DNA from: Saccoglossus kowalevskii
Lineage: Eukaryota > Hemichordata > Enteropneusta > Harrimaniidae
Length of the DNA stretch: 26,866 nucleotides
NCBI RefSeq assembly: GCF_000003605.2
Contig: NW_003155052.1
Span: 1 to 26,866 of the forward strand
Direction: 5' to 3'
Made by a program: the position numbers and the translations under genes
The notes under the pieces: model-generated
Told to the model about the DNA's origin: nothing
The model's database searches: none
Seen by the model: the letters and a program-made list of their open reading frames with translations, nothing else
Shown here: in pieces, positions 1-20,207 of the stretch
Layout: each line of letters opens with the position of its first letter
Position numbering within the stretch: the stretch's first letter is position 1

Positions 1-22
1 ATTAGTGGGAATCATATTGACA

Positions 23-554
23 GGCGTGAATAGTGGAAATCATATTGACAGTCGTGATTAGTAGGAATCATATTGGCAGTCGTGATTAGTAAGAACCATA
101 TTGACAGGCGTGATTAGTGGGAATCATATTGACAGTCGTGATTAGTGGGAATCACATTGACAGGCGTGATTAGTGGAAATCATACTGACAGCCGTGATTG
201 GTGGGAATCATATTGACAGTCGTGATTAGTGGGAATCAAATTGACAGCCGTGATTAGTGGGAATCACATTGGCAGTCGTGATTAGTGGGAATCATATTGA
301 GAGTCGTGATTAGTGGGAATCATATTGACAGTCGTGATTAGTGGGAATCAAATTGACAGGCGTGATTAGTGGAAATAATTTTCACAGTCGTGATTAGTGG
401 GAATCATATTGACAGTCGTGATTAGTGGGAATCACATTGACAGTCGTGATTAGTGGGAATCAAATTGACAGTCGTGATTAGTGGGAATCATATTGACAGT
501 CGTGATTAGTGGGAATCATATTGACAGTCGTGATTAGTGGGAATCATATTGACA
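23..554 (+). repeat. Diverged X-tail, B and linker module
   Basis: Five units at 23-162 resemble the last five units of block X, with extra changes (T8A in the first, a GTAAGAACC run in the third). B-like units follow at 163-414: B1 and B2 are exact, an extra T21A unit is inserted, the B3 and B4 equivalents lack some marker changes, and the B7 equivalent at 359-386 has G15A, A22T and G25C but not G14A and carries C19A. Units 415-554 are a linker with T21C, T21A and three consensus copies. The order matches the modules further right, so this is probably an older or rearranged copy. Assignment is by shared private changes. Confidence 0.7.
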
Positions 555-834
555 GTCGCGATTATTAGGAATCATATTGACAGTCGTGATTGGTGGGAAT
601 CATATTGACAGCCGTGATTACTGGGAATCATATTGACAGTCATGATTAGTGGGAATCATATTGACAGCCATGATTTGTGGGAATCACATTGACAGGCGTG
701 ATTAGTGGGAATCACATTGACAGTCGTGATTAGTTGGAATGACATTTGCAGTCGTGATTAGCGGGAATCATATTGACAGTCGTGATTAGTAGGAATCATA
801 TTGGCAGTCGTGATTAGTGGGAATCATATTGTCA
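555..834 (+). repeat. Block A, complete 10-unit copy
   Basis: All ten A units occur in order with no indel: the GTCGCGATTATTAGG unit first, then A10G, G11C, G4A, the TTTGTGGGAA unit (A5, 667-694), T2G/T21C, the TTGGAATGACATTTGCA unit (A7), the AGCGGG unit (A8), GTAGG with TTGGCA (A9), and TTGTCA (A10). Other full copies are at 3157-3436, 9739-10018, 12705-12984 and 16205-16484. These ten variants in fixed order are the strongest marker of higher-order structure in the window. Confidence 0.88.
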
Positions 835-1366
835 GGCGTGATTATTGGGAATCATATTGACAGTCGTGATTATTAAGAATCATATTGACAGGCGTGATTA
901 GTGGAAATCATACTGACAGCCGTGATTAGTGGGAATCACATTGACAGGCGTGATTAGTGGGAATCATATTGACAGTCGTGATTAGTGGGAATCACATTGG
1001 CAGGCGTGATTAGTGGGAATCATATTGACAGTCATGATTATTGGGAATCATATTGGCAGGCGTGATTAGTGTGAATCATATTGACAGGCGTGATTAGTGG
1101 GAATCATATTGGCAGTCGTGATTAGTGGGAATCATATTGACAGCCGTGATTAGTGGGAATCACATTGACAGGCGTGATTAGTGGAAATCATATTGACAGT
1201 CGTGATTAGTGGGAATCATATTGACAGTCGTGATTAGTGGGAATCATATTGACAGTCGTGATTAGTGGGAATCACATTGACAGGCGTGATTAGTGGAAAT
1301 CATATTGACAGTCGTGATTAGTGGGAATCATATTGACAGTCGTGATTAGTGGGAATCATATTGACA
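835..1366 (+). repeat. Mixed units passing into C-type repeats
   Basis: Units 835-1030 are a mixture (G11T units, one B1-like unit at 891-918, T2G and T21C units) that I cannot place in one block. From 1031 to 1254 the order is C5 to C12, including the G14T form of C6 (GTGTGAATC) also seen at 18891 and 24599. Units 1255-1366 repeat a T21C, a C10-like and two consensus copies. This is C-type sequence at the left edge, about 17 kb from the main C domain. Confidence 0.7.
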
Positions 1367-1814
1367 GTCGAGATTAGTGGGAATCACATTGACAGTCGTG
1401 ATTATTGGGAATCATATTGACAGCCGTGATTAGTGGGAATCACATTGAGAGGCGTGATTAGTGGGAATCATATTGACAGTCGGGATTAGTGGGAATCACA
1501 TTGACAGTCGTGATTATTGGGAATCATATTGACAGCCGTGATTAGTGGGAATCACATTGAGAGGCGTGATTAGTGGGAATCATATTGACAGTCATGATTA
1601 TTGGGAATCATATTGGCAGGCGTGATTAGTGGGAATCATATTGACAGGCGTGATTAGTGGGAATCATATTGGCAGTCGTGATTAGTGGGAATCATATTGA
1701 CAGCCGTGATTAGTGGGAATCACATTGACAGGCATGATTAGTGGAAATCATATTGACAGTCGTGATTAGTGGGAATCATATTGACAGTCGTGATTAGTGG
1801 GAATCATATTGACA
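1367..1814 (+). repeat. Block C with a 4-unit internal duplication
   Basis: C1-C4 occur at 1367-1478 (C1 with T5A), then a complete C1-C12 at 1479-1814 (C1 with T5G). The two C3 units, marked by ATTGAGAGGCG, are 112 bp (4 units) apart. The same 112-bp doubling, with the same T5A-then-T5G order, occurs at 20764-20987, so both loci descend from one duplicated ancestor. Confidence 0.82.
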
Positions 1815-1982
1815 GCCGTGATTAGTGGGAATCACATTGACAGGCGTGATTAGTGGGAATCACATTGACAGTCGTGATTAGTTGGAATGACATTTGCAGT
1901 CGTGATTAGCGGGAATCATATTGACAGTCGTGATTAGTAGGAATCATATTGGCAGTCGTGATTAGTGGGAATCATATTGTCA
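1815..1982 (+). repeat. Junction from block C into A6-A10
   Basis: A T2C/T21C unit at 1815-1842, which continues the C pattern, is followed by A6 to A10 at 1843-1982 (TTGGAATGACATTTGCA, AGCGGG, GTAGG and TTGTCA markers). A1-A5 are absent. The register is unbroken, so the join occurred in phase, as expected for unequal exchange between aligned units. Confidence 0.75.
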
Positions 1983-2458
1983 GGCGTGATTAGTGGGAAT
2001 CACATTGGCAGTCGTGATTAGTGGGAATCATATTGAGAGTCGTGATTAGTGGGAATCATATTGACAGTCGTGATTAGTGGGAATCACATTGACAGGCGTG
2101 ATTAGTGGAAATCATTTTCACAGTCGTGATTAGTGGGAAACATATTGACAGTCGTGATTAGTGGGAATCAAATTGACAGTCGTGATTAGTGGGAATCATA
2201 TTGACAGTCGCGATTATTAGGAATCATATTGACAGTCGTGATTAGTGGGAATCATATTGACAGTCGTGATTAGTGGGAATCATATTGACAGCCGTGATTA
2301 GTGGGAATCATATTGACAGTCATGATTAGTGGGAATCATATTGACAGTCGTGATTAGTGGGAATCACATTGACAGTCGTGATTAGTGGGAATCACATTGA
2401 CAGTCGTGATTAGTTGGAATGACATTGGCAGTCGTGATTAGCGGGAATCATATTGACA
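1983..2458 (+). repeat. B-like precursor units followed by variant block A-prime
   Basis: Units 1983-2150 follow the order B3-B8, but B4 lacks G14T and B6 lacks A7G, while the B7 equivalent at 2095-2122 lacks G14A. After two linker-like units, 2207-2458 is a 9-unit variant of block A: A1, two consensus, T2C, G4A, two T21C units, then A7 and A8 equivalents in which A7 ends TTGGCA. The same 9-unit order is at 16709-16960. These look like earlier states of the modules that dominate 3-18 kb. Confidence 0.7.
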
Positions 2459-2486
2459 GTCGTGATTAGTGGGAATCATATTGACA

Positions 2487-3156
2487 GTCGTGATTAGTGG
2501 AAATCATACTGACAGCCGTGATTAGTGGAATCATATGACAGTCGTGATTAGTGGGAAGCAAATTGACAGTCGTGATTAGTGGGAATCATATTGACAGTCG
2601 TGATTATTGGGAATCATATTGACAGCCGTGATTAGTGGGAATCACATTGACAGGCGTGATTAGTGGGAATAATATTGACAGTCATGATTATGGGGAATCA
2701 TATTGGCAGGCGTGATTAGTGGGAATCATATTGAAAGGCGTGATTAGTGGGAATCATATTGACAGTCGAGATTAGTGGGAATCATATTGACAGCCGTGAT
2801 TAGTGGGAATCATATTGACAGGCGTGATTAGTGGAAATCATATTGACAGTCGTGATTAGTAGGAATCATATTGGCAGTCGTGATTAGTGGGAATCATATT
2901 GACAGGCGTGATTAGTGGGAATCATATTGACAGTCGTGATTAGTGGGAATCACATTGACAGGCGTGATTAGTGGAAATCATACTGACAGCCGTGATTGGT
3001 GGGAATCATATTGACAGTCGTGATTAGTGGGAATCACATGGCCAGTCGTGATTAGTGGGAATCAAATTGACAGTCGTGATTAGTGGGAATCAAATTGACA
3101 GTCGTGATTAGTGGGAATCATATTGACAGTCGTGATTAGTGGGAATCATATTGACA
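2487..3156 (+). repeat. Extended X-like block, short B and short linker
   Basis: X1-X3 at 2487-2568 include the GGGAAGCAAATT marker. X2 (2515-2540) is 26 bp because it lacks one G and one T, the first register shift in the window. Extra units, including a G11T copy, precede the X4-like unit at 2653 (AATAAT) and X5 at 2681 (GATTATGGGG); the tail runs to 2960. B1-B3 follow at 2961-3044, B3 having CATGGCCAG. A four-unit linker ends at 3156. A related extended X occurs around 8850-9066. Confidence 0.7.
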
Positions 3157-3940
3157 TTCGAGATTATTAGGAATCATATTGACAGTCGTGATTGGTGGGA
3201 ATCATATTGACAGCCGTGATTACTGGGAATCATATTGACAGTCATGATTAGTGGGAATCATATTGACAGCCATGATTTGTGGGAATCACATTGACAGGCG
3301 TGATTAGTGGGAATCACATTGACAGTCGTGATTAGTTGGAATGACATTTGCAGTCGTGATTAGCGGGAATCATATTGACAGTCGTGATTAGTAGGAATCA
3401 TATTGGCAGTCGTGATTAGTGGGAATCATATTGTCAGGCGTGATTAGTGGAAATCATATTAACAGTCGTGATTAGTAGGAATCATATTGGCAGTCGTGAT
3501 TAGTGGGAATCATATTGACAGGCGTGATTAGTGGGAATCATATTGACAGTCGTGATTAGTGGGAATCACATTGACAGGCGTGATTAGTGGAAATCATACT
3601 GACAGCCGTGATTGGTGGGAATCATATTGACAGTCGTGATTAGTGGGAATCACATTGGCAGTCGTGATTAGTGTGAATCATATTGAGAGTCGTGATTAGT
3701 GGGAATCATATTGACAGTCGTGGTTAGTGGGAATCACATTGACAGGCGTGATTAGTGAAAATCATTTTCACAGTCGTGATTAGTGGGAATCATGTTGACA
3801 GTCGTGATTAGTGGGAATCATATTGACAGTCGTGATTAGTGGGAATCATATTGACAGTCGTGATTAGTGGGAATCATATTGACAGTCGTGATTAGTGGGA
3901 ATCATATTGACAGTCGTGATTAGTGGGAATCATATTGACA
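3157..3940 (+). repeat. Module A - X-tail - B - L5 (784 bp)
   Basis: Block A at 3157-3436 has A1 altered to TTCGAGATTATTAGG. The five-unit X tail is at 3437-3576, beginning with the ATTAACAG unit. Block B at 3577-3800 is complete, with B6 at 3717 and the palindromic B7 at 3745. Five perfect consensus units fill 3801-3940. Together these make 28 units, the same content as 9375-10158 read from a different starting block. Confidence 0.85.
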
Positions 3941-4387
3941 GTCGCGATTATTAGGAATCATATTGACAGTCGTGATTGGTGGGAATCATATTGACAGGCG
4001 TGATTAGTGGGAATCATATTGACAGTCGTGATTAGTGGGAATCACATTGACAGGCGTGATTAGTGAAAATCATTTTCACAGTCGTGATTAGTGGGAATCA
4101 TGTTGACAGTCGTGATTAGTGGGAATCATATTGACAGTCGTGATTAGTGGAATCACATTGACAGTCGTGATTAGTGGAAATCACATTGACAGTCGTGATT
4201 GGTGGGAATCATATTGACAGTCGTGATTAGTGGGAATCATATTGACAGTCGTGATTAGTGGGAATCACATTGACAGTCGTGATTAGTGGAAATCATACTG
4301 ACAGCCGTGATTAGTGGGAATCATATTGACAGTCGTGATTAGTGGGAATCATATTGACAGCCATGATTAGTGGGAATCACATTGACA
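3941..4387 (+). repeat. Truncated A1-A2 joined to B7-B8, then mixed units
   Basis: A1 and A2 (3941-3996) are followed by a T2G unit and a T21C unit, then B7 and B8 at 4053-4108. The same junction is at 14554-14721. Units 4109-4387 are mostly consensus or T21C; the unit starting at 4137 is 27 bp (one G of the GGG run lost), shifting the register. Confidence 0.72.
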
Positions 4388-4779
4388 GTCGTGATTAGTG
4401 GGAATCATATTGACAGTCGTGATTAGTGGGAATCATATTGACAGTCGTGATTAGTGGGAATCATATTGACAGTCGTGATTAGTGGGAATCATATTGACAG
4501 TCGTGATTAGTGGGAATCATATTGACAGTCGTGATTAGTGGGAATCATATTGACAGTCGTGATTAGTGGGAATCATATTGACAGTCGTGATTAGTGGGAA
4601 TCATATTGACAGTCGTGATTAGTGGGAATCATATTGACAGTCGTGATTAGTGGGAATCACATTGACAGTCGTGATTAGTGGGAATCATATTGACAGTCGT
4701 GATTAGTGGGAATCATATTGACAGTCGTGATTAGTGGGAATCATATTGACAGTCGTGATTAGTGGGAATCACATTGACA
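4388..4779 (+). repeat. Homogenised consensus run
   Basis: Nine consecutive units at 4388-4639 match the consensus exactly. One T21C unit (4640-4667), three more perfect units (4668-4751) and another T21C unit (4752-4779) follow, so 14 units contain two substitutions. This points to very recent local amplification, or to a collapse or expansion artefact of assembly. Confidence 0.93.
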
Positions 4780-5255
4780 GGCGTGATTAGTGGAAATCAT
4801 ACTGACAGCCGTGATTGGTGGGAATCATATTGACAGTCGTGATTAGTGGGAATCACATTGGCAGTCGTGATTAGTGTGAATCATATTGAGAGTCGTGATT
4901 AGTGGGAATCATATTGACAGTCGTGGTTAGTGGGAATCACATTGACAGGCGTGATTAGTGAAAATCATTTTCACAGTCGTGATTAGTGGGAATCATGTTG
5001 ACAGTCGTGATTAGTGGGAATCATATTGACAGTCGTGATTAGTGGGAATCATATTGACAGTCGTGATTAGTGGGAATCATATTGACAGTCGTGATTAGTG
5101 GGAATCATATTGACAGTCGTGATTAGTGGGAATCATATTGACAGTCGCGATTATTAGGAATCATATTGACAGTCGTGATTGGTGGGAATCATATTGACAG
5201 GCGTGATTAGTGGGAATCATATTGACAGTCGTGATTAGTGGGAATCACATTGACA
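4780..5255 (+). repeat. 476-bp (17-unit) module, first of a tandem pair
   Basis: Block B at 4780-5003, five perfect consensus units at 5004-5143, A1-A2 at 5144-5199, then a T2G and a T21C unit. The next block B starts at 5256, giving a 476-bp period. The same pair, with the same truncation of A after two units, occurs at 13714-14189. Confidence 0.85.
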
Positions 5256-5815
5256 GGCGTGATTAGTGGAAATCATACTGACAGCCGTGATTGGTGGGAA
5301 TCATATTGACAGTCGTGATTAGTGGGAATCACATTGGCAGTCGTGATTAGTGTGAATCATATTGAGAGTCGTGATTAGTGGGAATCATATTGACAGTCGT
5401 GGTTAGTGGGAATCACATTGACAGGCGTGATTAGTGAAAATCATTTTCACAGTCGTGATTAGTGGGAATCATGTTGACAGTCGTGATTAGTGGGAATCAT
5501 ATTGACAGTCGTGATTAGTGGGAATCACATTGACAGTCGTGATTAGTGGAAATCAAATTGACAGTCGTGATTAGTGGGAATCAAATTGACAGTCGTGATT
5601 AGTGGGAATCATATTGACAGTCGTGATTAGTGGGAATCATATTGACAGTCGCGATTATTAGGAATCATATTGACAGTCGTGATTGGTGGGAATCATATTG
5701 ACAGCCGTGATTACTGGGAATCATATTGACAGTCATGATTAGTGGGAATCATATTGACAGCCATGATTTGTGGGAATCACATTGACAGGCGTGATTAGTG
5801 GGAATCACATTGACA
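5256..5815 (+). repeat. Module B - L6 - A1-A6
   Basis: Block B at 5256-5479 is followed by the six-unit linker at 5480-5647 (consensus, T21C, G15A/T21A, T21A, two consensus) and A1-A6 at 5648-5815, including the TTTGTGGGAA unit at 5760. A7-A10 are missing. The same truncation follows L6 at 10383-10718 and 14722-15057, so L6 with A1-A6 travels as a unit. Confidence 0.85.
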
Positions 5816-6403
5816 GTCGTGATTAGTGGGAATCATATTGACAGCCGTGATTAGTGGGAATCATATTGACAGTCGTGATTAGTGGAAATCATACTGACAG
5901 CCGTGATTAGTGGGAATCATATTGACAGTCGTGATTAGTGGGAAGCAAATTGACAGTCGTGATTAGTGGGAATAATATTGACAGTCGAGATTAGTGGGAA
6001 TCATATTGACAGCCGTGATTAGTGGGAATCATATTGACATGCGTGATTAGTGGAAATCATATTAACAGTCGTGATTAGTAAGAATCATATTGGCAGTCGT
6101 GATTAGTGGGAATCATATTGACAGGCGTGATTAGTGGGAATCATATTGACAGTCGTGATTAGTGGGAATCACATTGACAGGCGTGATTAGTGGAAATCAT
6201 ACTGACAGCCGTGATTGATGGGAATCATATTGACAGTCGTGATTAGTGGGAATCACATTGGCAGTCGTGATTAGTGGGAATCATATTGACAGTCGTGATT
6301 AGTGGGAATCATATTGACAGTCGTGATTAGTGGGAATCATATTGACAGTCGTGATTAGTGGGAATCACATTGACAGGCGTGATTAGTGGGAATCATGTTG
6401 ACA
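5816..6403 (+). repeat. Shortened block X and mixed B units
   Basis: After two linker-like units, X starts at 5872 but lacks X5-X7, so X4 (AATAAT) is followed directly by X8 (T5A). It runs to 6179 as 11 units, with X11 carrying GTAAG. B1 is at 6180 and B2, as GATTGATGGG, at 6208. The unusual GTAAG and GATTGATG markers recur together at 9273 and 9406, an offset of 3195 bp. Units 6264-6403 are mostly consensus with T21C and A22G forms. Confidence 0.75.
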
Positions 6404-6602
6404 GTCGTGATTTATTGGGAATCATATTGACAGTCGTGATTAGTGGGAATCATATTGACAGTCGTGACTCAGTGGGAATCATATTGACAGTCGTGATTAG
6501 TGGGAATCATATGACAGTCGTGACTAGTGGGAATCATATTGACAGGCGTGATTTAGTGGGAATCACATTGTACAGGCGAGATTAGTTGGAATAATATTGA
6601 CA
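6404..6602 (+). repeat. Indel cluster in seven adjacent units
   Basis: Unit lengths here are 29 (6404-6432), 28, 29 (6461-6489), 27 (6490-6516), 28, 30 (6545-6574) and 28: five single-base indels, net +3, where thousands of bases on the right have none. Changes include GATTTATT, GACTCAG, CATATGACA, GATTTAG and TTGTACA. By restoring frame between units the indels create a chance 75-codon open frame (GTG at 6358, TAG at 6583-6585) whose translation is only the repeat. I do not regard it as a gene. Poor consensus sequence or a degenerated patch are the likely causes. Confidence 0.85.
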
Positions 6603-6658
6603 GTCATGATTATCGGGAATCATATTGACAGGCGTGATTAGTGGGAATCATATTGACA

Positions 6659-7498
6659 GTCGTGATTAGTGGAAATCATACTGACAGCCGTGATTAGTGG
6701 GAATCATATTGACAGTCGTGATTAGTGGGAAGCAAATTGACAGTCGTGATTAGTGGGAATAATATTGACAGTCATGATTATGGGGAATCATATTGGCAGG
6801 CGTGATTAGTGGGAATCATATTGACAGGCGTGATTAGTGGGAATCATATTGACAGTCGAGATTAGTGGGAATCATATTGACAGCCGTGATTAGTGGGAAT
6901 CATATTGACATGCGTGATTAGTGGAAATCATATTGACAGTCGTGATTAGTAGGAATCATATTGGCAGTCGTGATTAGTGGGAATCATATTGACAGGCGTG
7001 ATTAGTGGGAATCATATTGACAGTCGTGATTAGTGGGAATCACATTGACAGGCGTGATTAGTGGAAATCATACTGTCAGCCGTGATTGGTGGGAATCATA
7101 TTGACAGTCGTGATTAGTGGGAATCACATTGGCAGTCGTGATTAGTGTGAATCATATTGAGAGTCGTGATTAGTGGGAATCATATTGACAGTCGTGATTA
7201 GTGGGAATCACATTGACAGGCGTGATTAGTGAAAATCATTTTCACAGTCGTGATTAGTGGGAATCATGTTGACAGTCGTGATTAGTGGGAATCATATTGA
7301 CAGTCGTGATTAGTGGGAATCACATTGACAGTCGTGATTAGTGGAAATCAAATTGACAGTCGTGATTAGTGGGAATCAAATTGACAGTCGTGATTAGTGG
7401 GAATCATATTGACAGTCGTGATTAGTGGGAATCATATTGACAGTCGCGATTATTAGGAATCATATTGACAGCCATGATTTGTGGGAATCACATTGACA
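6659..7498 (+). repeat. Module X - B-like - L6 - truncated A
   Basis: Complete 14-unit X at 6659-7050, with GGGAAGCAAATT, AATAAT and GATTATGGGG markers and the TGCG-starting X10. Block B at 7051-7274 lacks the A7G change in B6, and B1 ends ACTGTCAG. L6 is at 7275-7442. Block A is cut to A1 (7443) joined to A5 (7471), losing three units in phase. A matching X lies at 10775-11166. Confidence 0.85.
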
Positions 7499-8142
7499 GG
7501 CGTGATTAGTGGGAATCATATTGACAGTCGAGATTAGTGGGAATCATATTGACAGCCGTGATTAGTGGGAATCATATTGACATGCGTGATTAGTGGAAAT
7601 CATATTAACAGTCGTGATTAGTAGGAATCATATTGGCAGTCGTGATTAGTGGGAATCATATTGACAGGCGTGATTAGTGGGAATCATATTGACAGTCGTG
7701 ATTAGTGGGAATCACATTGACAGGCGTGATTAGTGGAAATCATACTGACAGCCGTGATTGGTGGGAATCATATTGACAGTCGTGATTAGTGGGAATCACA
7801 TTGACAGGCGTGATTAGTGAAAATCATTTTCACAGTCGTGATTAGTGGCAATCATGTTGACAGTCGTGATTAGTGGGAATCATATTGACAGTCGTGATTA
7901 GTGGGAATCACATTGACAGTCGTGATTAGTGGAAATCAAATTGACAGTCGTGATTAGTGGGAATCAAATTGACAGTCGTGATTAGTGGGAATCATATTGA
8001 CAGTCGTGATTAGTGGGAATCATATTGACAGTCGCGATTATTAGGAATCATATTGACAGTCGTGATTGGTGGGAATCATATTGACAGCCGTGATTACTGG
8101 GAATCATATTGACAGTCATGATTAGTGGGAATCATATTGACA
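7499..8142 (+). repeat. X tail, compact B, L6 and A1-A4
   Basis: Units 7499-7722 equal X7-X14. Block B at 7723-7862 has five units: B1, B2, a single T21C unit in place of B3-B6, B7, and B8 with GGCAATCATG. L6 is at 7863-8030 and A1-A4 at 8031-8142. The same compact B with the same GGCAATC change is at 12397-12536, so the three-unit deletion was copied between loci. Confidence 0.82.
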
Positions 8143-9094
8143 GTCGTGATTAGTGGGAATCACATTGACAGTCGTGATTAGTGGGAATCACATTGACAGT
8201 CGTGATTAGTTGGAATGACATTTGCAGTCGTGATTAGCGGGAATCATATTGACAGTCGTGATTAGTGGGAATCATATTGACAGTCGTGATTAGTGGGAAT
8301 GACATTGGCAGTCGTGATTAGCGGGAATCATATTGACAGTCGTGATTAGTGGGAATCATATTGACAGTCGTGATTAGTAGGAATCATATTGGCAGTCGTG
8401 ATTAGTGGGAATCATATTGACAGGCGTGATTAGTGGGAATCATATTGACAGTCGTGATTAGTGGGAATCACATTGACAGGCGTGATTAGTGGAAATCATA
8501 CTGACATCCGTGATTGGTGGGAATCATATTGACAGTCGTGATTAGTGGGAATCACATTGGCAGTCGTGATTAGTGGGAATCAAATTGACAGTCGTGATTA
8601 GTGGGAATCATATTGACAGTCATGATTAGTGGGAATCATATTGACAGTCGTGATTAGTGGGAATCACATTGACAGTCGTGATTAGTGGGAATCACATTGA
8701 CAGTCGTGATTAGTTGGAATGACATTGGCAGTCGTGATTAGCGGGAATCATATTGACAGTCGTGATTAGTGGGAATCATATTGACAGTCGTGATTAGTGG
8801 GAATCATATTGACAGTCGTGATTAGTGGGAATCATATTGACAGTCGTGATTAGTGGGAAGCAAATTGACAGTCGTGATTATTGGGAATCATATTGACAGT
8901 CGTGATTATTGGGAATCATATTGACAGCCGTGATTAGTGGGAATCACATTGACAGGCGTGATTAGTGGGAATAATATTGACAGTCATGATTATGGGGAAT
9001 CATATTGGCAGGCGTGATTAGTGGGAATCATATTGAAAGGCGTGATTAGTGGGAATCATATTGACAGTCGAGATTAGTGGGAATCATATTGACA
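8143..9094 (+). repeat. Mixed A, B and X fragments
   Basis: A7-A8 equivalents occur at 8199-8254 and again at 8283-8338. A9 at 8367, a consensus unit, an X13-X14 pair, B1 at 8479 and an altered B2 starting TCCG at 8507 follow. The segment about 8339-8678 matches about 11755-12094 at an offset of exactly 3416 bp (122 units). An extended X-like stretch with GGGAAGCAAATT, two G11T units, AATAAT and GATTATGGGG ends the region. No indels. Confidence 0.68.
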
Positions 9095-9374
9095 GCCGTG
9101 ATTAGTGGGAATCATATTGACAGTCGTGATTAGTGGGAAGCAAATTGACAGTCGTGATTAGTGGGAATAATATTGACAGTCGAGATTAGTGGGAATCATA
9201 TTGACAGCCGTGATTAGTGGGAATCATATTGACATGCGTGATTAGTGGAAATCATATTAACAGTCGTGATTAGTAAGAATCATATTGGCAGTCGTGATTA
9301 GTGGGAATCATATTGACAGGCGTGATTAGTGGGAATCATATTGACAGTCGTGATTAGTGGGAATCACATTGACA
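9095..9374 (+). repeat. Shortened block X (X2 to X14, lacking X5-X7)
   Basis: Ten units with GGGAAGCAAATT at X3, AATAAT at X4, then X8 and the TGCG unit X10, with X11 carrying GTAAG. It pairs with 5900-6179 through the shared three-unit deletion and GTAAG. It leads directly into block B at 9375. Confidence 0.8.
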
Positions 9375-10158
9375 GGCGTGATTAGTGGAAATCATACTGA
9401 CAGCCGTGATTGATGGGAATCATATTGACAGTCGTGATTAGTGGGAATCACATTGGCAGTCGTGATTAGTGTGAATCATATTGAGAGTCGTGATTAGTGG
9501 GAATCATATTGACAGTCGTGGTTAGTGGGAATCACATTGACAGGCGTGATTAGTGAAAATCATTTTCACAGTCGTGATTAGTGGGAATCATGTTGACAGT
9601 CGTGATTAGTGGGAATCATATTGACAGTCGTGATTAGTGGGAATCATATTGACAGTCGTGATTAGTGGGAATCATATTGACAGTCGTGATTAGTGGGAAT
9701 CATATTGACAGTCGTGATTAGTGGGAATCATATTGACAGTCCCGATTATTAGGAATCATATTGACAGTCGTGATTGGTGGGAATCATATTGACAGCCGTG
9801 ATTACTGGGAATCATATTGACAGTCATGATTAGTGGGAATCATATTGACAGCCATGATTTGTGGGAATCACATTGACAGGCGTGATTAGTGGGAATCACA
9901 TTGACAGTCGTGATTAGTTGGAATGACATTTGCAGTCGTGATTAGCGGGAATCATATTGACAGTCGTGATTAGTAGGAATCATATTGGCAGTCGTGATTA
10001 GTGGGAATCATATTGTCAGGCGTGATTAGTGGAAATCATATTAACAGTCGTGATTAGTAGGAATCATATTGGCAGTCGTGATTAGTGGGAATCATATTGA
10101 CAGGCGTGATTAGTGGGAATCATATTGACAGTCGTGATTAGTGGGAATCACATTGACA
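9375..10158 (+). repeat. Reference 784-bp higher-order repeat: B - L5 - A - X-tail
   Basis: This is the cleanest full period: block B (9375-9598; B2 has GATTGATG), five perfect consensus units (9599-9738), complete block A (9739-10018; A1 has GTCCCG), and the five-unit X tail (10019-10158). The next B starts at 10159. It contains exactly 28 units of 28 bp without an indel. I use it as the model for naming blocks elsewhere. Confidence 0.9.
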
Positions 10159-10774
10159 GGCGTGATTAGTGAAAATCATACTGACAGCCGTGATTGGTGG
10201 GAATCATATTGACAGTCGTGATTAGTGGGAATCACATTGGCAGTCGTGATTAGTGTGAATCATATTGAGAGTCGTGATTAGTGGGAATCATATTGACAGT
10301 CGTGGTTAGTGGGAATCACATTGACAGGCGTGATTAGTGAAAATCATTTTCACAATCGTGATTAGTGGGAATCATGTTGACAGTCGTGATTAGTGGGAAT
10401 CATATTGACAGTCGTGATTAGTGGGAATCACATTGACAGTCGTGATTAGTGGAAATCAAATTGACAGTCGTGATTAGTGGGAATCAAATTGACAGTCGTG
10501 ATTAGTGGGAATCATATTGACAGTCGTGATTAGTGGGAATCATATTGACAGTCGCGATTATTAGGAATCATATTGACAGTCGTGATTGGTGGGAATCATA
10601 TTGACAGCCGTGATTACTGGGAATCATATTGACAGTCATGATTAGTGGGAATCATATTGACAGCCATGATTTGTGGGAATCACATTGACAGGCGTGATTA
10701 GTGGGAATCACATTGACAGTCGTGATTAGTGGGAATCATATTGACAGCCGTGATTAGTGGGAATCATATTGACA
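10159..10774 (+). repeat. Module B - L6 - A1-A6
   Basis: Block B at 10159-10382 (B1 with an added G14A; B7 followed by CACAATCG), L6 at 10383-10550, A1-A6 at 10551-10718, then a consensus and a T2C unit. The truncation after A6 matches 5256-5815 and 14722-15057. With the X block that follows, the B-to-B distance is 1008 bp (36 units). Confidence 0.87.
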
Positions 10775-11166
10775 GTCGTGATTAGTGGAAATCATACTGA
10801 CAGCCGTGATTAGTGGGAATCATATTGACAGTCGTAATTAGTGGGAAGCAAATTGACAGTCGTGATTAGTGGGAATAATATTGACAGTCATGATTATGGG
10901 GAATCATATTGGCAGGCGTGATTAGTGGGAATCATATTGACAGGCGTGATTAGTGGGAATCATATTGACAGTCGAGATTAGTGGGAATCATATTGACAGC
11001 CGTGATTAGTGGGAATCATATTGACATGCGTGATTAGTGGAAATCATATTAACAGTCGTGATTAGTAGGAATCATATTGGCAGTCGTGATTAGTGGGAAT
11101 CATATTGACAGGCGTGATTAGTGGGAATCATATTGACAGTCGTGATTAGTGGGAATCACATTGACA
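10775..11166 (+). repeat. Block X, complete 14-unit copy
   Basis: Units in order: G15A/T23C; T2C; GGGAAGCAAATT with GTCGTAATTAG; AATAAT; GTCATGATTATGGGG with TTGGCA; two T2G; GTCGAG; T2C; the TGCG-starting unit with ATTAACA; GTAGG with TTGGCA; consensus; T2G; T21C. Near-identical copies are at 6659-7050 and 23983-24374. It ends exactly at block B (11167). Confidence 0.87.
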
Positions 11167-12090
11167 GGCGTGATTAGTGGAAATCATACTGACAGCCGTG
11201 ATTGGTGGGAATCATATTGACAGTCGTGATTAGTGGGAATCACATTGGCAGTCGTGATTAGTGTGAATCATATTGAGAGTCGTGATTAGTGGGAATCATA
11301 TTGACAGTCGTGGTTAGTGGGAATCACATTGACAGGCGTGATTAGTGAAAATCATTTTCACAGTCGTGATTAGTGGGAATCATGTTGACAGTCGTGATTA
11401 GTGGGAATCATATTGACAGTCGTGATTAGTGGGAATCATATTGACAGTCGTGATTAGTGGGAATCATATTGACAGTCGTGATTAGTGGGAATCATATTGA
11501 CAGTCGTGATTAGTGGGAATCATATTGACAGTCGCGATTATTAGGAATCATATTGACAGTCGTGATTGGTGGGAATCATATTGACAGCCGTGATTACTGG
11601 GAATCATATTGACAGTCATGATTAGTGGGAATCATATTGACAGCCATGATTTGTGGGAATCACATTGACAGGCGTGATTAGTGGGAATCACATTGACAGT
11701 CGTGATTAGTTGGAATGACATTTGCAGTCGTGATTAGCGGGAATCATATTGACAGTCGTGATTAGTGGGAATCATATTGACAGTCGTGATTAGTAGGAAT
11801 CATATTGGCAGTCGTGATTAGTGGGAATCATATTGACAGGCGTGATTAGTGGGAATCATATTGACAGTCGTGATTAGTGGGAATCACATTGACAGGCGTG
11901 ATTAGTGGAAATCATACTGACATCCGTGATTGGTGGGAATCATATTGACAGTCGTGATTAGTGGGAATCACATTGGCAGTCGTGATTAGTGGGAATCAAA
12001 TTGACAGTCGTGATTAGTGGGAATCATATTGACAGTCATGATTAGTGGGAATCATATTGACAGTCGTGATTAGTGGGAATCACATTGACA
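11167..12090 (+). repeat. Module B - L5 - A and following mixed units
   Basis: Block B at 11167-11390, L5 at 11391-11530, A1-A8 at 11531-11754, one inserted consensus unit, then A9 at 11783. Units to 12090 repeat the X13-X14, B1, TCCG-starting B2 and B3 order also seen at 8423-8600. No indel in this stretch. Confidence 0.8.
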
Positions 12091-12312
12091 GTCCTGATTA
12101 ATGGGAATCACATTGACAGTCGTGATTACTTGGAATGACATTTGCAGCCGTGATTAACGGGAATCATATTGACAGTCGTGATTAGTGGGAATCATATTGA
12201 CAGTCGTGATTATTATAATCATATTGGCAGTCGTGATTACTGGGAATCATATTGACAGGCGTGATTAGTGGGAATCATATTGACAGTCGTGATTACTGGG
12301 ATCATACTGACA
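12091..12312 (+). repeat. Degenerate patch, eight units
   Basis: Six of eight units carry private changes around positions 10-15: GTCCTGATTAATGGG, GATTACTTGG, GATTAACGG, GATTATTATAATC (27 bp), GATTACTGGG and GATTACTGGGATC (27 bp). The stretch aligns with the region right of 8675, where these changes are absent. Two deletions shift the register by -2. Local low sequence accuracy or an older diverged segment are both possible. Confidence 0.75.
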
Positions 12313-12984
12313 GCCGTGATTAGTGGGAATCATATTGACAGTCGTGATTAGTGGGAATCATATTGACAGTCGTGATTAGTGGGAATCACATTGACAGGCG
12401 TGATTAGTGGAAATCATACTGACAGCCGTGATTGGTGGGAATCATATTGACAGTCGTGATTAGTGGGAATCACATTGACAGGCGTGATTAGTGAAAATCA
12501 TTTTCACAGTCGTGATTAGTGGCAATCATGTTGACAGTCGTGATTAGTGGGAATCATATTGACAGTCGTGATTAGTGGGAATCATATTGACAGTCGTGAT
12601 TAGTGGGAATCATATTGACAGCCGTGATTAGTGGGAATCATATTGACAGTCATGATTAGTGGGAATCATATTGACAGTCGTGATTAGTGGGAATCATATT
12701 GACAGTCGTGATTATTAGGAATCATATTGACAGTCGTGATTGGTGGGAATCATATTGACAGCCGTGATTACTGGGAATCATATTGACAGTCATGATTAGT
12801 GGGAATCATATTGACAGCCATGATTTGTGGGAATCACATTGACAGGCGTGATTAGTGGGAATCACATTGACAGTCGTGATTAGTTGGAATGACATTTGCA
12901 GTCGTGATTAGCGGGAATCATATTGACAGTCGTGATTAGTAGGAATCATATTGGCAGTCGTGATTAGTGGGAATCATATTGTCA
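12313..12984 (+). repeat. Compact B, linker with G4A unit, full block A
   Basis: Three units lead to the five-unit compact B at 12397-12536, sharing GGCAATCATG with 7835-7862. Six units at 12537-12704 form an unusual linker containing a T2C and a G4A unit. Block A at 12705-12984 is complete, but A1 keeps T at position 5 (GTCGTGATTATTAGG). Confidence 0.82.
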
Positions 12985-13499
12985 GGCGTGATTAGTGGGA
13001 ATCACATTGGCAGTCGTGATTAGTGGGAATCATATTGACAGTCGTGATTAGTTGGAATGACATTGGCAGTCGTGATTAGTGGGAATCATATTGACAGGCG
13101 TGATTAGTGGGAATCATATTGACAGTCGTGATTAGTGGGAATCATATTGACAGTCGTGATTAGTGGGAATCACATTGACCGTCATGATTAGTGGGAATCA
13201 AATTGACAGTCGTGATTAGTGGGAATCATATTGACAGTCGCGATTATTAGGAATCATATTGACAGTCGTGATTAGTGGGAATCATATTGACAGTCGTGAT
13301 TAGTGGGAATCATATTGACAGTCGTGATTAGTGGGAATCATATTGACAGTCGTGATTAGTGGGAATCATATTGACAGTCGCGATTATTAGGAATCATATT
13401 GACAGTCGTGATTAGTGGGAATCACATTGACAGTCGTGATTAGTTGGAATGACATTGGCAGTCGTGATTAGCGGGAATCATATTGACAGTCGTGATTAG
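12985..13499 (+). repeat. Mixed linker and A-prime fragments
   Basis: Mostly consensus and T21C units with two TTGGAATGACATTGGCA units and two A1 units (GTCGCGATTATTAGG). The GACCGTCATGATTAG change at about 13177-13191 recurs at 16649-16663, exactly 3472 bp (124 units) away, followed by the same T21A unit and A1. No coding content. Confidence 0.62.
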
Positions 13500-13685
13500 T
13501 GGAATCATATTGACAGTCGAGATTAGTGGAAATCATACTGACAGCCGTGATAGTGGGAATCATATTGACAGTCGTGATTAGTGGAAATCATATTAACAGT
13601 CGTGATAGTAGAGAATCATATTGAGCAGTCGTGATTAGTGGAGAATCATATTGACAGGCGTGATTAGTGGAGAATCATATTGACA
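13500..13685 (+). repeat. Indel cluster with inserted A residues
   Basis: Seven single-base indels in about seven units: GTGGAATC (loss), GTGATAGTGGG (loss), GATAGTAGAGAATC (loss plus gain), TTGAGCAG (gain), and GTGGAGAATC twice (gains); net +1. Four of the gains place an A inside or beside a G run, a pattern not seen elsewhere in the window. To the left the region resembles A-prime, to the right a module identical to 4752-5527 begins, so the cluster sits at a block junction. Confidence 0.85.
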
Positions 13686-14461
13686 GTCGTGATTAGTGGG
13701 AATCACATTGACAGGCGTGATTAGTGGAAATCATACTGACAGCCGTGATTGGTGGGAATCATATTGACAGTCGTGATTAGTGGGAATCACATTGGCAGTC
13801 GTGATTAGTGTGAATCATATTGAGAGTCGTGATTAGTGGGAATCATATTGACAGTCGTGGTTAGTGGGAATCACATTGACAGGCGTGATTAGTGAAAATC
13901 ATTTTCACAGTCGTGATTAGTGGGAATCATGTTGACAGTCGTGATTAGTGGGAATCATATTGACAGTCGTGATTAGTGGGAATCATATTGACAGTCGTGA
14001 TTAGTGGGAATCATATTGACAGTCGTGATTAGTGGGAATCATATTGACAGTCGTGATTAGTGGGAATCATATTGACAGTCGCGATTATTAGGAATCATAT
14101 TGACAGTCGTGATTGGTGGGAATCATATTGACAGGCGTGATTAGTGGGAATCATATTGACAGTCGTGATTAGTGGGAATCACATTGACAGGCGTGATTAG
14201 TGGAAATCATACTGACAGCCGTGATTGGTGGGAATCATATTGACAGTCGTGATTAGTGGGAATCACATTGGCAGTCGTGATTAGTGTGAATCATATTGAG
14301 AGTCGTGATTAGTGGGAATCATATTGACAGTCGTGGTTAGTGGGAATCACATTGACAGGCGTGATTAGTGAAAATCATTTTCACAGTCGTGATTAGTGGG
14401 AATCATGTTGACAGTCGTGATTAGTGGGAATCATATTGACAGTCGTGATTAGTGGGAATCA
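13686..14461 (+). repeat. 776-bp segment identical to 4752-5527
   Basis: One T21C unit, block B (13714-13937), L5 (13938-14077), A1-A2 (14078-14133), two units, a second block B (14190-14413) and the start of a linker. Read side by side with 4752-5527 I saw no mismatch. The two loci are 8934 bp apart. They part at 14462, where this copy continues with L5 and the left copy with L6. Confidence 0.85.
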
Positions 14462-15057
14462 TATTGACAGTCGTGATTAGTGGGAATCATATTGACAGTC
14501 GTGATTAGTGGGAATCATATTGACAGTCGTGATTAGTGGGAATCATATTGACAGTCGCGATTATTAGGAATCATATTGACAGTCGTGATTGGTGGGAATC
14601 ATATTGACAGGCGTGATTAGTGGGAATCATATTGACAGTCGTGATTAGTGGGAATCACATTGACAGGCGTGATTAGTGAAAATCATTTTCACAGTCGTGA
14701 TTAGTGGGAATCATGTTGACAGTCGTGATTAGTGGGAATCATATTGACAGTCGTGATTAGTGGGAATCACATTGACAGTCGTGATTAGTGGAAATCAAAT
14801 TGACAGTCGTGATTAGTGGGAATCAAATTGACAGTCGTGATTAGTGGGAATCATATTGACAGTCGTGATTAGTGGGAATCATATTGACAGTCGCGATTAT
14901 TAGGAATCATATTGACAGTCGTGATTGGTGGGAATCATATTGACAGCCGTGATTACTGGGAATCATATTGACAGTCATGAGTAGTGGGAATCATATTGAC
15001 AGCCATGATTTGTGGGAATCACATTGACAGGCGTGATTAGTGGGAATCACATTGACA
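14462..15057 (+). repeat. L5, A1-A2, B7-B8, L6 and A1-A6
   Basis: The L5 begun at 14414 ends at 14553. A1-A2 (14554-14609) and two units lead to a bare B7-B8 pair (14666-14721), the junction also seen at 3941-4108. L6 is at 14722-14889 and A1-A6 at 14890-15057 (A4 with GTCATGAGTAG). The content of this stretch combines junctions found separately at about 4.0 kb and 5.5 kb. Confidence 0.82.
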
Positions 15058-16484
15058 GTCGTGATTAGTGGGAATCATATTGACAGCCGTGATTAGTGGG
15101 AATCATATTGACAGTCGTGATTAGTGGAAATCATACTGACAGCCGTGATTAGTGGGATCATATTGACAGTCGTGATTAGTGGGAAGCAAATTGACAGTCG
15201 TGATTAGTGGGAATCATATTGACAGTCGTGATTGGTGGGAATCATATTGACAGCCGTGATTACTGGGAATCATATTGACAGTCATGATTAGTGGGAATCA
15301 TATTGACAGCCATGATTTGTGGGAATCACATTGACAGGCGTGATTAGTGGGAATCACATTGACAGTCGTGATTAGTTGGAATGACACTTGCAGTCGTGAT
15401 TAGCGGGAATCATATTGACAGTCGTGATTAGTAGGAATCATATTGGCAGTCGTGATTAGTGGGAATCATATTGTCAGGCGTGATTAGTGGGAATCACATT
15501 GGCAGTCGTGATTAGTGGGAATCATATTGACAGTCGTGATTAGTGGGAATCATATTGGCAGGCGTGATTAGTGGGAATCATATTGACAGGCGTGATTAGT
15601 GGGAATCATATTGACAGTCGAGATTAGTGGGAATCATATTGACTGCCGTGATTAGTGGGAATCATATTGACATGCGTGATTAGTGGAAATCATATTGACA
15701 GTCGTGATTAGTAGGAATCATATTGGCAGTCGTGATTAGTGGGAATCATATTGACAGCCGTGATTAGTGGGAATCATATTGACAGTCGTGATTAGTGGGA
15801 ATCACATTGACAGGCGTGATTAGTGGAAATCATACTGACAGCCGTGATTGGTGGGAATCATATTGACAGTCGTGATTAGTGGGAATCACATTGGCAGTCG
15901 TGATTAGTGTGAATCATATTGAGAGTCGTGATTAGTGGGAATCATATTGAGAGTCGTGATTAGTGGGAATCACATTGACAGGCGTGATTAGTGAAAATCA
16001 TTTTCGCAGTCGTGATTAGTGGGAATCATGTTGACAGTCGTGATTAGTGGGAATCATATTGACAGTCGTGATTAGTGGGAATCACATTGACAGTCGTGAT
16101 TAGTGGAAATCAAATTGACAGTCGTGATTAGTGGGAATCAAATTGACAGTCGTGATTAGTGGGAATCATATTGACAGTCGTGATTAGTGGGAATCATATT
16201 GACAGTCGCGATTATTAGGAATCATATTGACAGTCGTGATTGGTGGGAATCATATTGACAGCCGTGATTACTGGGAATCATATTGACAGTCATGATTAGT
16301 GGGAATCATATTGACAGCCATGATTTGTGGGAATCACATTGACAGGCGTGATTAGTGGGAATCACATTGACAGTCGTGATTAGTTGGAATGACATTTGCA
16401 GTCGTGATTAGCGGGAATCATATTGACAGTCGTGATTAGTAGGAATCATATTGGCAGTCGTGATTAGTGGGAATCATATTGTCA
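15058..16484 (+). repeat. Left copy of a 1.6-1.9 kb tandem duplication
   Basis: Contains a GGGAAGCAAATT unit (15181), A2-A10 at 15225-15476 with the private TGACACTTGCAG form of A7, a nine-unit insert with X-like units including GACTGCCG, block B at 15813-16036 with B7 ending TTTTCGCAG, L6 at 16037-16204 and complete A at 16205-16484. One base is lost near 15158 (GTGGGATCA). The private TGACACTT and TTTTCGCAG changes recur only in the right copy. Confidence 0.82.
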
Positions 16485-16975
16485 GGCGTGATTAGTGAAA
16501 ATCATATTGGCAGTCGTGATTAGTGGGAATCATATTGACAGTCGTGGTTAGTGGGAATCACATTGACAGGCGTGATTAGTGGAAATCATTTTCACAGTCG
16601 TGATTAGTGGGAATCATATTGACAGTCGTGATTAGTGGGAATCACATTGACCGTCATGATTAGTGGGAATCAAATTGACAGTCGTGATTAGTGGGAATCA
16701 TATTGACAGTCGCGATTATTAGGAATCATATTGACAGTCGTGATTAGTGGGAATCATATTGACAGTCGTGATTAGTGGGAATCATATTGACAGCCGTGAT
16801 TAGTGGGAATCATATTGACAGTCATGATTAGTGGGAATCATATTGACAGACGTGATTAGTGGGAATCACATTGACAGTCGTGATTAGTGGGAATCACATT
16901 GACAGTCGTGATTAGTTGGAATGACATTGACAGTCGTGATTAGCGGGAATCATATTGACAGTCGTGATTAGTGGG
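16485..16975 (+). repeat. Precursor-type B units and block A-prime
   Basis: A B6 unit (16541) is followed at 16569 by a B7 precursor lacking G14A. Units with GACCGTCATG and T21A lead to the nine-unit A-prime at 16709-16960, which matches 2207-2458 in order. One unit reads GACGTGATTAG. This older-looking segment is sandwiched between the two copies of the 15-18 kb duplication. Confidence 0.72.
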
Positions 16976-17827
16976 AATCATATTGACAGTCGTGATTAGT
17001 GGAAATCATACTGACAGCCGTGATTAGTGGGAATCATATTGACAGTCGTGATTAGTGGGAAGCAAATTGACAGTCGTGATTAGTGGGAATCATATTGACA
17101 GTCGTGATTGGTGGGAATCATATTGACAGCCGTGATTACTGGGAATCATATTGACAGTCATGATTAGTGGGAATCATATTGACAGCCATGATTTGTGGGA
17201 ATCACATTGACAGGCGTGATTAGTGGGAATCACATTGACAGTCGTGATTAGTTGGAATGACACTTGCAGTCGTGATTAGCGGGAATCATATTGACAGTCG
17301 TGATTAGTAGGAATCATATTGGCAGTCGTGATTAGTGGGAATCATATTGGCAGTCGTGATTAGTGGGAATCATATTGACAGCCGTGATTAGTGGGAATCA
17401 TATTGACAGTCGTGATTAGTGGGAATCACATTGACAGGCGTGATTAGTGGAAATCATACTGACAGCCGTGATTGGTGGGAATCATATTGACAGTCGTGAT
17501 TAGTGGGAATCACATTGGCAGTCGTGATTAGTGTGAATCATATTGAGAGTCGTGATTAGTGGGAATCATATTGAGAGTCGTGATTAGTGGGAATCACATT
17601 GACAGGCGTGATTAGTGAAAATCATTTTCGCAGTCGTGATTAGTGGGAATCATGTTGACAGTCGTGATTAGTGGGAATCATATTGACAGTCGTGATTAGT
17701 GGGAATCACATTGACAGTCGTGATTAGTGGAAATCAAATTGACAGTCGGATTAGTGGGAATCAAATTGACAGTCGTGATTAGTGGGAATCATATTGACAG
17801 TCGTAATTAGTGGGAATCATATTGACA
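16976..17827 (+). repeat. Right copy of the 1.6-1.9 kb tandem duplication
   Basis: GGGAAGCAAATT at 17057, A2-A9 at 17101-17324 with TGACACTTGCAG, then the units matching 15721 onward, block B at 17437-17660 with TTTTCGCAG, and L6 at 17661-17827. The offset from the left copy is 1876 bp (67 units) before 17324 and 1624 bp (58 units) after it, so nine units (252 bp) are absent here. L6 holds GTCGGATTAG (one base lost) and GTCGTAATTAG. Confidence 0.83.
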
Positions 17828-18050
17828 GTCGCGATTAGTAGGAATCATACTCCCAGTCGGGATTGATATGAATCACAGTGACATCCGGGATTAATGGGAA
17901 TCATGTTGACAGTCGCGATTCGTGGGAATCATATTGACAGACGGGATATGTGGGAATCACTTTGACAGGCGTGATTAGTGGGAATCACGGGGACAGTCGG
18001 CATTAGTTGGAATGACATTAACAGTCGGGTGAGCGGGAATCATATTGACA
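17828..18050 (+). repeat. Heavily substituted copy of A1-A8
   Basis: Aligned with 16205-16428, each of eight units keeps its A-block identity but carries three to six extra substitutions, about 30 in total, plus one deletion in the last unit (GTCGGGTGAGCGGG). Examples are TACTCCCA, GATTGATATG, CAGTGACATCCGGG, GACGGGATATG and CACGGGGACAG. Many changes introduce G or C. A9 and A10 (18051-18106) on the right are unaltered. Everywhere else copies of A differ by only a few bases. Confidence 0.88.
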
Positions 18051-18750
18051 GTCGTGATTAGTAGGAATCATATTGGCAGTCGTGATTAGTGGGAATCATA
18101 TTGTCAGGCGTGATTAGTGGGAATCACATTGGCAGTCGTGATTAGTGGGAATCATATTGACAGTCGTGATTAGTGGGAATCATATTGACAGTCGTGATTA
18201 GTGGGAATCACATTGACAGGCGTGATTAGTGGAAATCATTTTGACAGTCGTGATTAGTGGGAATCATATTGACAGTCGTGATTAGTGGGAATCATATTGA
18301 CAGTCGTGATTAGTGGGAATCAAATTGACAGTCGTGATTAGTGGGAATCATATTGACAGCCGTGATTAGTGGGAATCACATTGGCAGTCGTGATTAGTGG
18401 GAATCATATTGACAGTCGTGATTAGAGGAAATCATATTGACAGTCGTGATTAGTGGAAATCACATTTACAGTCGTGATTAGTGGGAATCAAATTGACAGT
18501 CGTGATTAGTGGGAATCATATTGACAATCGTGATTAGTGGGAATCACATTGACAGGCGTGATTAGTGGAAATCATATTGACAGTCGTGATTAGTGGGAAT
18601 CATATTGACAGTCGTGATTAGTGGGAATCACATTGACAGCCGTGATTAGTGGGAATCACATTGACAGGCGTGATTAGTGGAAATCATATTGACAGTCGTG
18701 ATTAGTGGGAATCATATTGACAGTCGTGATTAGTGGGAATCATATTGACA
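18051..18750 (+). repeat. End of the A/B domain and transition to C-type units
   Basis: A9-A10 at 18051-18106, then mostly consensus, T21C and T2G units. Unit 18219-18246 carries T2G, G15A and A22T, an intermediate toward the B7 palindrome. The segment about 18330-18702, marked by GATTAGAGGAAATC, CACATTTACAG and TTGACAATCG, matches about 21071-21443 (offset 2741 bp). Confidence 0.75.
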
Positions 18751-19342
18751 GTCGGGATTAGTGGGAATCACATTGACAGTCGTGATTATTGGGAATCATA
18801 TTGACAGCCGTGATTAGTGGGAATCACATTGAGAGGCGTGATTAGTGGGAATCATATTGACAGTCATGATTATTGGGAATCATATTGGCAGGCGTGATTA
18901 GTGTGAATCATATTGACAGGCGTGATTAGTGGGAATCATATTGGCAGTCGTGATTAGTGGGAATCATATTGACAGCCGTGATTAGTGGGAATCACATTGA
19001 CAGGCGTGATTAGTGGAAATCATATTGACAGTCGTGATTAGTGGGAATCATATTGACAGTCGTGATTAGTTGGAATCATATTGACAGCCGTGATTAGTGG
19101 GAATCACATTGACAGGCGTGATTAGTGGAAATCATATTGACAGTCGTGATTAGTGGGAATCATATTGACAGTCGTGATTAGTGGGAATCATATTGACAGT
19201 CGAGATTAGTGGGAATCACATTGACAGTCGTGATTATTGGGAATCATATTGACAGCCGTGATTAGTGGGAATCACATTGACAGCCGTGATTAGTGGGAAT
19301 CACATTGACAGGCGTGATTAGTGGAAATCATATTGACAGTCG
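18751..19342 (+). repeat. Block C, full copy plus partial copy
   Basis: C1 (T5G) to C12 at 18751-19086, with the G14T form of C6 and C12 carrying GTTGG. T2C, T2G and consensus units follow, then C1 (T5A) at 19199, C2, C3 without C27G and a doubled T2C unit. The order of 1479-1814 is reproduced here about 17 kb away. Confidence 0.82.
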
Positions 19343-20207
19343 TGATTATTGGGAATCATATTGGCAGGCGTGATTAGTGGGAATCATATTTACAGGCGTG
19401 ATTAGTGGGAATCATATTGGCAGTCGTGATTAGTGGGAATCATATTGACAGCCGTGATTAGTGGGAATCACATTGACAGGCGTGATTAGTGGAAATCATA
19501 TTGACAGTCGTGATTAGTGGGACTTATATTGACAGTCGTGATTATTGGGAATCATATTGACAGCCGTGATTAGTGGGAATCACATTGACAGGCGTGATTA
19601 GTGGGAATCATATTGACAGTCATGATTATTGAGAATCATATTGGCAGGCGTGATTAGTGGGAATCATATTGACAGTCGTGATTAGTGGGAATCATATTGG
19701 CAGTCGTGATTAGTGGGAATCATATTGACAGCCGTGATTAGTGGGAATCACATTGGCAGTCGTGATTAGTGGCAATCATATTGACAGTCGTGATTAGTGG
19801 GAATCATATTGACAGCCGTGATTAGTGGGAATCACATTGACAGGCGTGATTAGTGGAAATCATATTGACAGTGGTGATTAGTGGGAATCATATTGACAGT
19901 CGTGATTAGTGGGAATCATATTGACAGTCGAGATTAGTGGGAATCACATTGACAGTCGTGATTATTGGGAATGATATTGACAGCCGTGATTAGTGGGAAT
20001 CACATTGAGAGGCGTGATTAGTGGGAATCATATTGACAGTCATGATTATTGGGAATCATATTGGCAGGCGTGATTAGTGGGAATCATATTGACAGGCGTG
20101 ATTAGTGGGAATCATATTGGCAGTCGTGATTAGTGGGAATCACTTTGACAGGCGTGATTAGTGGGAATCATATTGGCAGTCGTGATTAGTGGGAATCATA
20201 TTGACAG
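19343..20207 (+). repeat. 865-bp segment duplicated at 25863-26727
   Basis: C-type units with private marks: CATATTTACAGG, GGGACTTATATTG (19521), GATTATTGAGAATC, GGCAATCATATTG (19771), CAGTGGTGATTAG (19871) and ATGATATTG (19971). All recur 6520 bp to the right. I saw two mismatches: 19574 T against C at 26094, and 20144 T against A at 26664. Confidence 0.88.

Follow-up and report, generated by a model that had tools for sequence, protein, structure and literature searches.

The stretch of DNA analyzed here (26,866 bp, hereafter the window) is a single head-to-tail array of a 28-bp unit whose variants recur in modular blocks. The preliminary description had read their order as a 28-by-28 higher-order repeat. 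By the test of consecutive near-identical copies, the array is not a 28-unit higher-order repeat but a block-mosaic satellite or giant minisatellite, in which 17, 28, 29, and 36 units are path lengths through shared blocks and 28 is one instance, not a period. The mosaic of this non-coding array was probably built by repeated copying of short tracts to distant places, together with occasional tandem duplication.

The array and its 28-bp unit

TRF assigned the whole window to one array of 959.8 copies with 90% matches, and a wrap-around alignment cut it into 959 whole units.

1..26866, + strand: tandem array of a 28-bp unit (TRF), open at both ends, the window holding no flanking DNA

Exactly 28 bp was found for 936 of the 959 units, in keeping with the unit length first reported. 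The units fall into 149 distinct types, of which the consensus type accounts for 197 units and 81 are singletons. Three core unit motifs occur 362–554 times each on the + strand of the whole 26.9 kb and not once on the − strand, and the GC skew lies at 0.36–0.42 in 26 of 26 one-kb windows, as expected when an asymmetric unit is repeated in one orientation. The units abut throughout, and there are none of the unique spacers between repeats that mark a CRISPR array. As a long head-to-tail non-coding array, the sequence fits satellite or large minisatellite DNA. The exact unit had no match in the viral_contigs or genome_contigs collections, nor had degenerate forms of it (26 bases in viral_contigs and 23 bases in genome_contigs); a 784-bp composite described below matched phages and plasmids at E ~10 only (four phage records and one plasmid record), and a text search of open-licence papers with five unit fragments found no paper. 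That so long a non-coding array has no relatives in these prokaryotic and viral collections suggests a eukaryotic source.

The possibility that the array is coding was rejected, the longest stop-free run under the standard code being 76 codons; each frame meets the stops of the unit in turn because 28 is not divisible by 3. The sole listed open reading frame (75 amino acids, 6358–6585) runs across a cluster of indels. A structured RNA was also rejected, as nothing in the window matched Rfam at the gathering score and single-strand folding of five pieces of one or two units gave z values of −2.35 to 0.02, too weak to build on. No tRNA genes were found in the window.

It is of interest that CpG is not depleted over the whole array (942 observed versus 938 expected). 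Within the CpG of the unit, the C is retained in 934 of the 936 full-length units, the adjoining G is A in 59 units, and there is no sign of methylation-driven decay on the + strand at this C. Substitution is strand-asymmetric: the inferred events include 32 of G>A and one of C>T in a unit with eight G and three C sites, and the Poisson chance of at most one C>T event with 12 expected is 8e-5. The unit also contains a dyad, TGATT-N6-AATCA (unit columns 23–27 and 6–10), whose arms vary little and whose 6-base loop varies. The lower variability of the arms was apparent from mean variant frequency (0.013 versus 0.078; permutation p 0.0008), from inferred events (p 0.003), and from singleton events (p 0.04). 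Selection on the dyad was nevertheless not adopted and is kept only as a lead, since rare alleles were not depleted in the arms (p 0.76) and the arms were chosen after the columns had been inspected.

Sequence quality

Indels were found in 23 units, 11 of which lie in two short stretches (five in 6386–6584 and six in 13499–13695). None of 5000 shuffles placed six indel units within 10 units, and the successive units at 13608, 13638, and 13667 carry an identical inserted A. Both clusters of one-base indels are probably uncorrected local read errors. The exact repeats listed below exceed short-read length, from which we infer a long-read or clone-based assembly.

Modular blocks and composites

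With unit types written as letters, the blocks are spelled B = SAEWcBXT, L = AAAAK or ADdIAK, A = OCUVBDYMHZ, and X = eHFAB. Eight-unit windows with a recurring unit string numbered 280, and none of 100 shuffles produced one; this bears out the earlier observation of modular blocks in recurring order. Of the 959 units, 539 lie within recurring eight-unit strings that contain more than one type, and the conditional entropy of unit order is 2.04 bits versus 3.39 ± 0.03 in 200 shuffles. The unit variants thus stand in a fixed relative order, as they do in a higher-order repeat.

The B block (eight units) was found 11 times within threshold, 6 of them exact; the letter string adds two compact forms (SABXx) and, near 21.9 kb, one truncated B, in agreement with the twelve B blocks, one truncated, and two compact ones counted previously. 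The full A block of 10 units was found 9 times within threshold (5 exact), the 6-unit L 9 times (6 exact), and X 12 times (4 exact), whereas the 32 placements of the 5-unit L (5 exact) are a count inflated by runs of consensus units; L in both its 5- and 6-unit forms and an X tail of 5 units had been described and were found. The marker of the A block, CATGATTTG, is present at 13 sites and, with a truncated OCU... copy near 8.0 kb, brings the A copies to 14. This equals the number given in the preliminary description, which had placed all fourteen in 3–22.6 kb, but one copy, at 669, falls outside that range. A second block family, whose units run roughly as D J R L P k/F N C B G A, prevails at 1.0–1.7, 18.4–21.5, and 23–26.9 kb, around the B/L/A/X region.

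Three composites follow one another within the B/L/A/X region:

9385..10168, + strand: the sole complete 28-unit composite, B8+L5+A10+X5, with 2 mismatches to the ideal (18 at the next-best place)
10169..11176, + strand: a 36-unit composite, B8+L6+OCUVBD+13-unit route+FAB, with 3 mismatches to the ideal (28 at the next-best place)
11177..11904, + strand: a shortened composite of 26 units, its letter string cut after FAB

The first of these is the segment reported earlier as 9375–10158, in a different unit frame. Between the B blocks at 9385 and 10169 the distance is 784 bp, and between the markers at 9853 and 10665 it is 812 bp, reproducing both of the distances first noted. Past OCUVBD, the array follows either the 6-unit YMHZeH or a route of 13 units, which appears three times, once in the far flank; both end in FAB. 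These alternative routes between OCUVBD and FAB account for the lengths of 28, 29, and 36 units. When O leads directly to FAB, a 17-unit composite results, of which there are four exact copies (at 3587, 4790, 13724, and 14200), and this is the cleanest recurring composite.

Absence of a 28-unit period

The claim of a 28-by-28 higher-order repeat fails on its own composite, which is complete once and is followed by 28 units that differ from it at 55 of 784 positions. The background between segments has a mean of 76 mismatches (sd 11), and a value of 55/784 or lower was seen for 2.8% of random segment pairs. The 28-unit composite is most like a segment 64 units (28 + 36) away, from which it differs at 20/784 positions; this match lies inside the lag-64 pair of 9189–9972 and 10981–11764.

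Over the whole array, lags 17, 64, and 28 scored 0.335, 0.338, and 0.314 when weighted by rarity, against a shuffle maximum of 0.301 (the highest of 500 shuffles at any lag up to 200). Unweighted, they scored 0.092, 0.092, and 0.088, none of them above the shuffle maximum of 0.093. The whole-array value at lag 28 was reached by 0 of 500 shuffles at that lag, and the weighted values at lags 29 and 36 were reached by 62 and 26 of 500, respectively; longer lags (147, 233, 319, and 617) had z of 6.3–8.6. Runs of at least three at lag 28 comprise 30 units, of which 7 lie at the composite site (9385–10168) and 15 beyond 22.6 kb, 12 of the latter at 23.6/24.4 kb in the second block family.

In 3–22.6 kb, after correction for the best of 120 lags, none of 1000 shuffles reached the values at lags 64, 17, and 58, whereas lags 28, 36, and 29 were reached by 461, 758, and 1000 of 1000. 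Without correction, these last numbers were 7, 17, and 194, so that lags 28 and 36 keep nominal support in this region. The preliminary description had called for peaks at 28, 29, 17, and 36 units; in 3–22.6 kb, the peak at 17 survives correction and those at 28, 29, and 36 do not. Ranked by mean mismatch among 120 lags, 58 came 1st, 64 2nd, 17 5th, 28 7th, 36 12th, and 29 24th.

The B blocks are spaced 43, 17, 64, 83, 28, 36, 91, 17, 58, and 58 units apart. The most-repeated lag occurs twice, and 3901 of 5000 random placements do equally well; 10 B pairs fall in recurring lags, which 568 of 5000 random placements equal. The array therefore has neither regular marker spacing nor, as a rule, consecutive near-identical multi-unit copies. 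Single pairs do have such copies, namely those at lag 17 (531 bp exact) and lag 64 (3/784); among long local repeats, that of 64 units is the strongest.

Dispersed and tandem duplicates

Duplicates with their positions are as follows:

9189..9972 and 10981..11764, + strand: pair at a lag of 64 units, differing at 3/784 bases
13672..14678, + strand: tandem duplication of 17 units (476 bp), with 531 bp exact at lag 476
4738..5527 and 13672..14461, + strand: longest exact repeat, 790 bp, its copies 8.9 kb apart
15714..16124, copy at 17338, + strand: exact repeat of 411 bp at a lag of 1624 bp (58 units)
19575..20143, copy at 26095, + strand: exact repeat of 569 bp in the second block family, lag 6520 bp
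23614..23974, copy at 24398, + strand: exact repeat of 361 bp in the second block family, lag 784 bp

The long exact copies include ones of 790, 648, 569, and 560 bp, and the closest 28-unit pairs, with 1–9 mismatches, lie at lags of 233, 319, 64, 175, 379, 235, and 147 units. There are 71 maximal unit-level repeats of at least eight units, a set that leaves out repeats with two or fewer unit types; 87.3% of them have a lag of more than 60 units and 1.4% are in tandem. A single large duplication at lag 319 was considered and rejected, the excess of ~30 units being about the size of one 790-bp segment. All four allele combinations were present in 70 of 393 allele pairs, which is compatible with exchange inside units or with recurrent mutation. 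Runs of the consensus unit (~12 identical units at 20313–20671 and ~9 at 4381–4660) perhaps reflect recent local homogenization.

Simulations of array evolution

Arrays were simulated under mutation with tandem duplication/deletion, with copying of tracts to a random distant place, or with both, in 30 settings (18 with 3 runs and 12 with 8 runs) and with no formal fitting. Distant copying of tracts with a mean of 15 units in an array of 960 units (8 runs) gave a fraction of repeats at lags above 60 units of 0.89 ± 0.04 (observed 0.873), a tandem fraction of 0.009 ± 0.012 (observed 1.4%), 125 ± 14 unit types (observed 149), a longest repeat of 37 ± 16 units (observed 27), and an eight-unit coverage of 0.61 ± 0.06 (observed 0.56). 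The same setting, which matches on these five measures, misses the number of repeat pairs (41 ± 9 versus 71 observed) and the frequency of the commonest type (0.116 ± 0.057 versus 0.205 observed). At 3000 units, two settings of distant copying gave too many types (339 and 431) and too little coverage (0.27–0.29). Tandem duplication/deletion with the same mean of 15 units gave 0.31 ± 0.18 at lags above 60 and 0.16 in tandem; a mean of 40 units went part of the way (0.61–0.75, with a longest repeat of 49–82 units); and means of 80–150 units produced longest repeats of 85–132 units versus the 27 observed. A mixture of tandem and distant events gave 0.70 at lags above 60 and 0.06 in tandem. In these models, short-tract distant copying is favored over tandem duplication; it is not proved and does not prevail on every measure.

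Discussion

Copying of short tracts over a distance would account for the mosaic as follows. Tracts of ~10–30 units (~0.2–0.8 kb) would have been copied repeatedly to other sites in the array, in many cases over kilobases, when misaligned copies engaged in gene conversion, template switching, or break-induced replication; an occasional true tandem duplication, such as the 17 units at 13.7–14.7 kb and the runs of identical units, would have been added; and the reuse of a few block choices would have yielded several path lengths (17, 28, 29, and 36). The array, its blocks, their irregular spacing, and the dispersed near-identical pairs are observed, whereas we infer the copying mechanism, a eukaryotic chromosome as the source, and a heterochromatic place for the array. 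Conversion and break-induced replication are among the published proposals for such arrays, in the accounts given in PMC2599865 and PMC11034957.

A true higher-order repeat of 28, 36, or 64 units, eroded by internal indels and maintained by unequal crossing-over as in alpha satellites, is an unlikely origin, although the forms of 17, 26, 28, and 36 units built from B, L, A, and X resemble deletion variants of one longer composite, the enrichment of lags 64, 17, and 58 in 3–22.6 kb is strong, and lag 28 exceeds all 500 whole-array shuffles at that lag. What speaks against such erosion is that no form of at least 26 units occurs in two adjacent complete copies, that the B blocks are irregularly spaced, and that lags above 60 units make up 87.3% of the long repeats. 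Plain tandem duplication and deletion, by replication slippage or unequal sister exchange and with no distant copying, would explain the exact 17-unit duplication at 13672–14678 and the identical consensus runs near 4.4 and 20.3 kb; as the sole process it is very unlikely, because simulated short tracts leave too few repeats at long lags (0.31 versus 0.873) and simulated long ones make the longest repeats too long (85–132 versus 27 units). Unequal exchange at long offsets followed by deletions could be another source of scattered remnants. That misjoined reads of a simpler array created the block order is highly improbable: the two tight indel clusters, with one inserted base common to three successive units, do point to locally poor reads, but exact copies of 790, 648, 569, and 560 bp have abrupt ends and share many private variants, and 936 of 959 units are exactly 28 bp.

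The pattern needs no function, and a centromeric, pericentromeric, or subtelomeric role is a possible candidate. Quite unlikely, in our estimation, is a functional chromosome-end or centromere array whose unit is under selection. Its single orientation, the skew in all 26 windows, and the low variability of the dyad arms are consistent with such an array, as are the end repeats of sciarids, for which segmental duplication in short-unit arrays is described (PMC7694509); any repeated asymmetric unit gives skew, however, and the arms are not depleted of rare alleles. It is similarly doubtful that the array is a centromere or recombination-maintained end in which the dyad is selected and the mosaic renewed by long-range short-tract copying; if a functional element of this kind were real, one contig would record the tract lengths and distances of satellite conversion.

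Returning to distant copying of short tracts as the preferred origin, the value of the array lies in its distinguishable unit variants, which allow individual copying events to be followed inside a single contig. Such tracing helps to tell unequal crossing-over apart from conversion-like copying as satellites evolve, and arrays of this kind are hard to assemble.

Short-unit arrays with higher-order structure have been described before. The preliminary description had held a multi-level order to be uncommon for so short a unit, a view to which the published accounts of human satellites 2 and 3, muntjac satellite I, and the Chio satellites offer counterexamples. Human satellites 2 and 3, like the present array, are described as having higher-order structure on a very short unit, with an ancestral 5-mer and units of 1.77 and 3.6 kb; they differ in that 5-bp ancestral unit and in that some subfamilies have a defined long unit in tandem (PMC4022460). 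Cervid satellite I, in muntjac a monomer of ~1 kb with internal 31-bp subrepeats, resembles the array as a composite of short units of similar length; in the account given, the cervid composite is a regular monomer in many copies, whereas the 784-bp composite is complete once here (PMC2760882). Chio1 and Chio2 of Chionographis japonica are centromeric satellites with units of 23 and 28 bp, and they share with the array long stretches of such units, a higher-order cluster, and dyad symmetries in the unit (PMC10264360). This likeness is one of description, and CENH3 binding is a feature of Chio; as reported, Chio arrays mix forward and reverse units, whereas none is reversed in the 26.9 kb seen here, although a larger array could differ. 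The M-22 and M-16 end repeats of sciarids also combine a short unit with segmental duplications deduced by the authors, but their units are 14–22 bp, against 28 bp here, and were mapped to chromosome ends (PMC7694509). In human minisatellite MSY1, unit variants likewise form blocks, and its authors infer gene-conversion-like mutation; as described there, the donor allele had 77 units and changes involved 1–3 units (PMC2599865), whereas the array described here comprises ~960 units, with repeats as long as 27 units.
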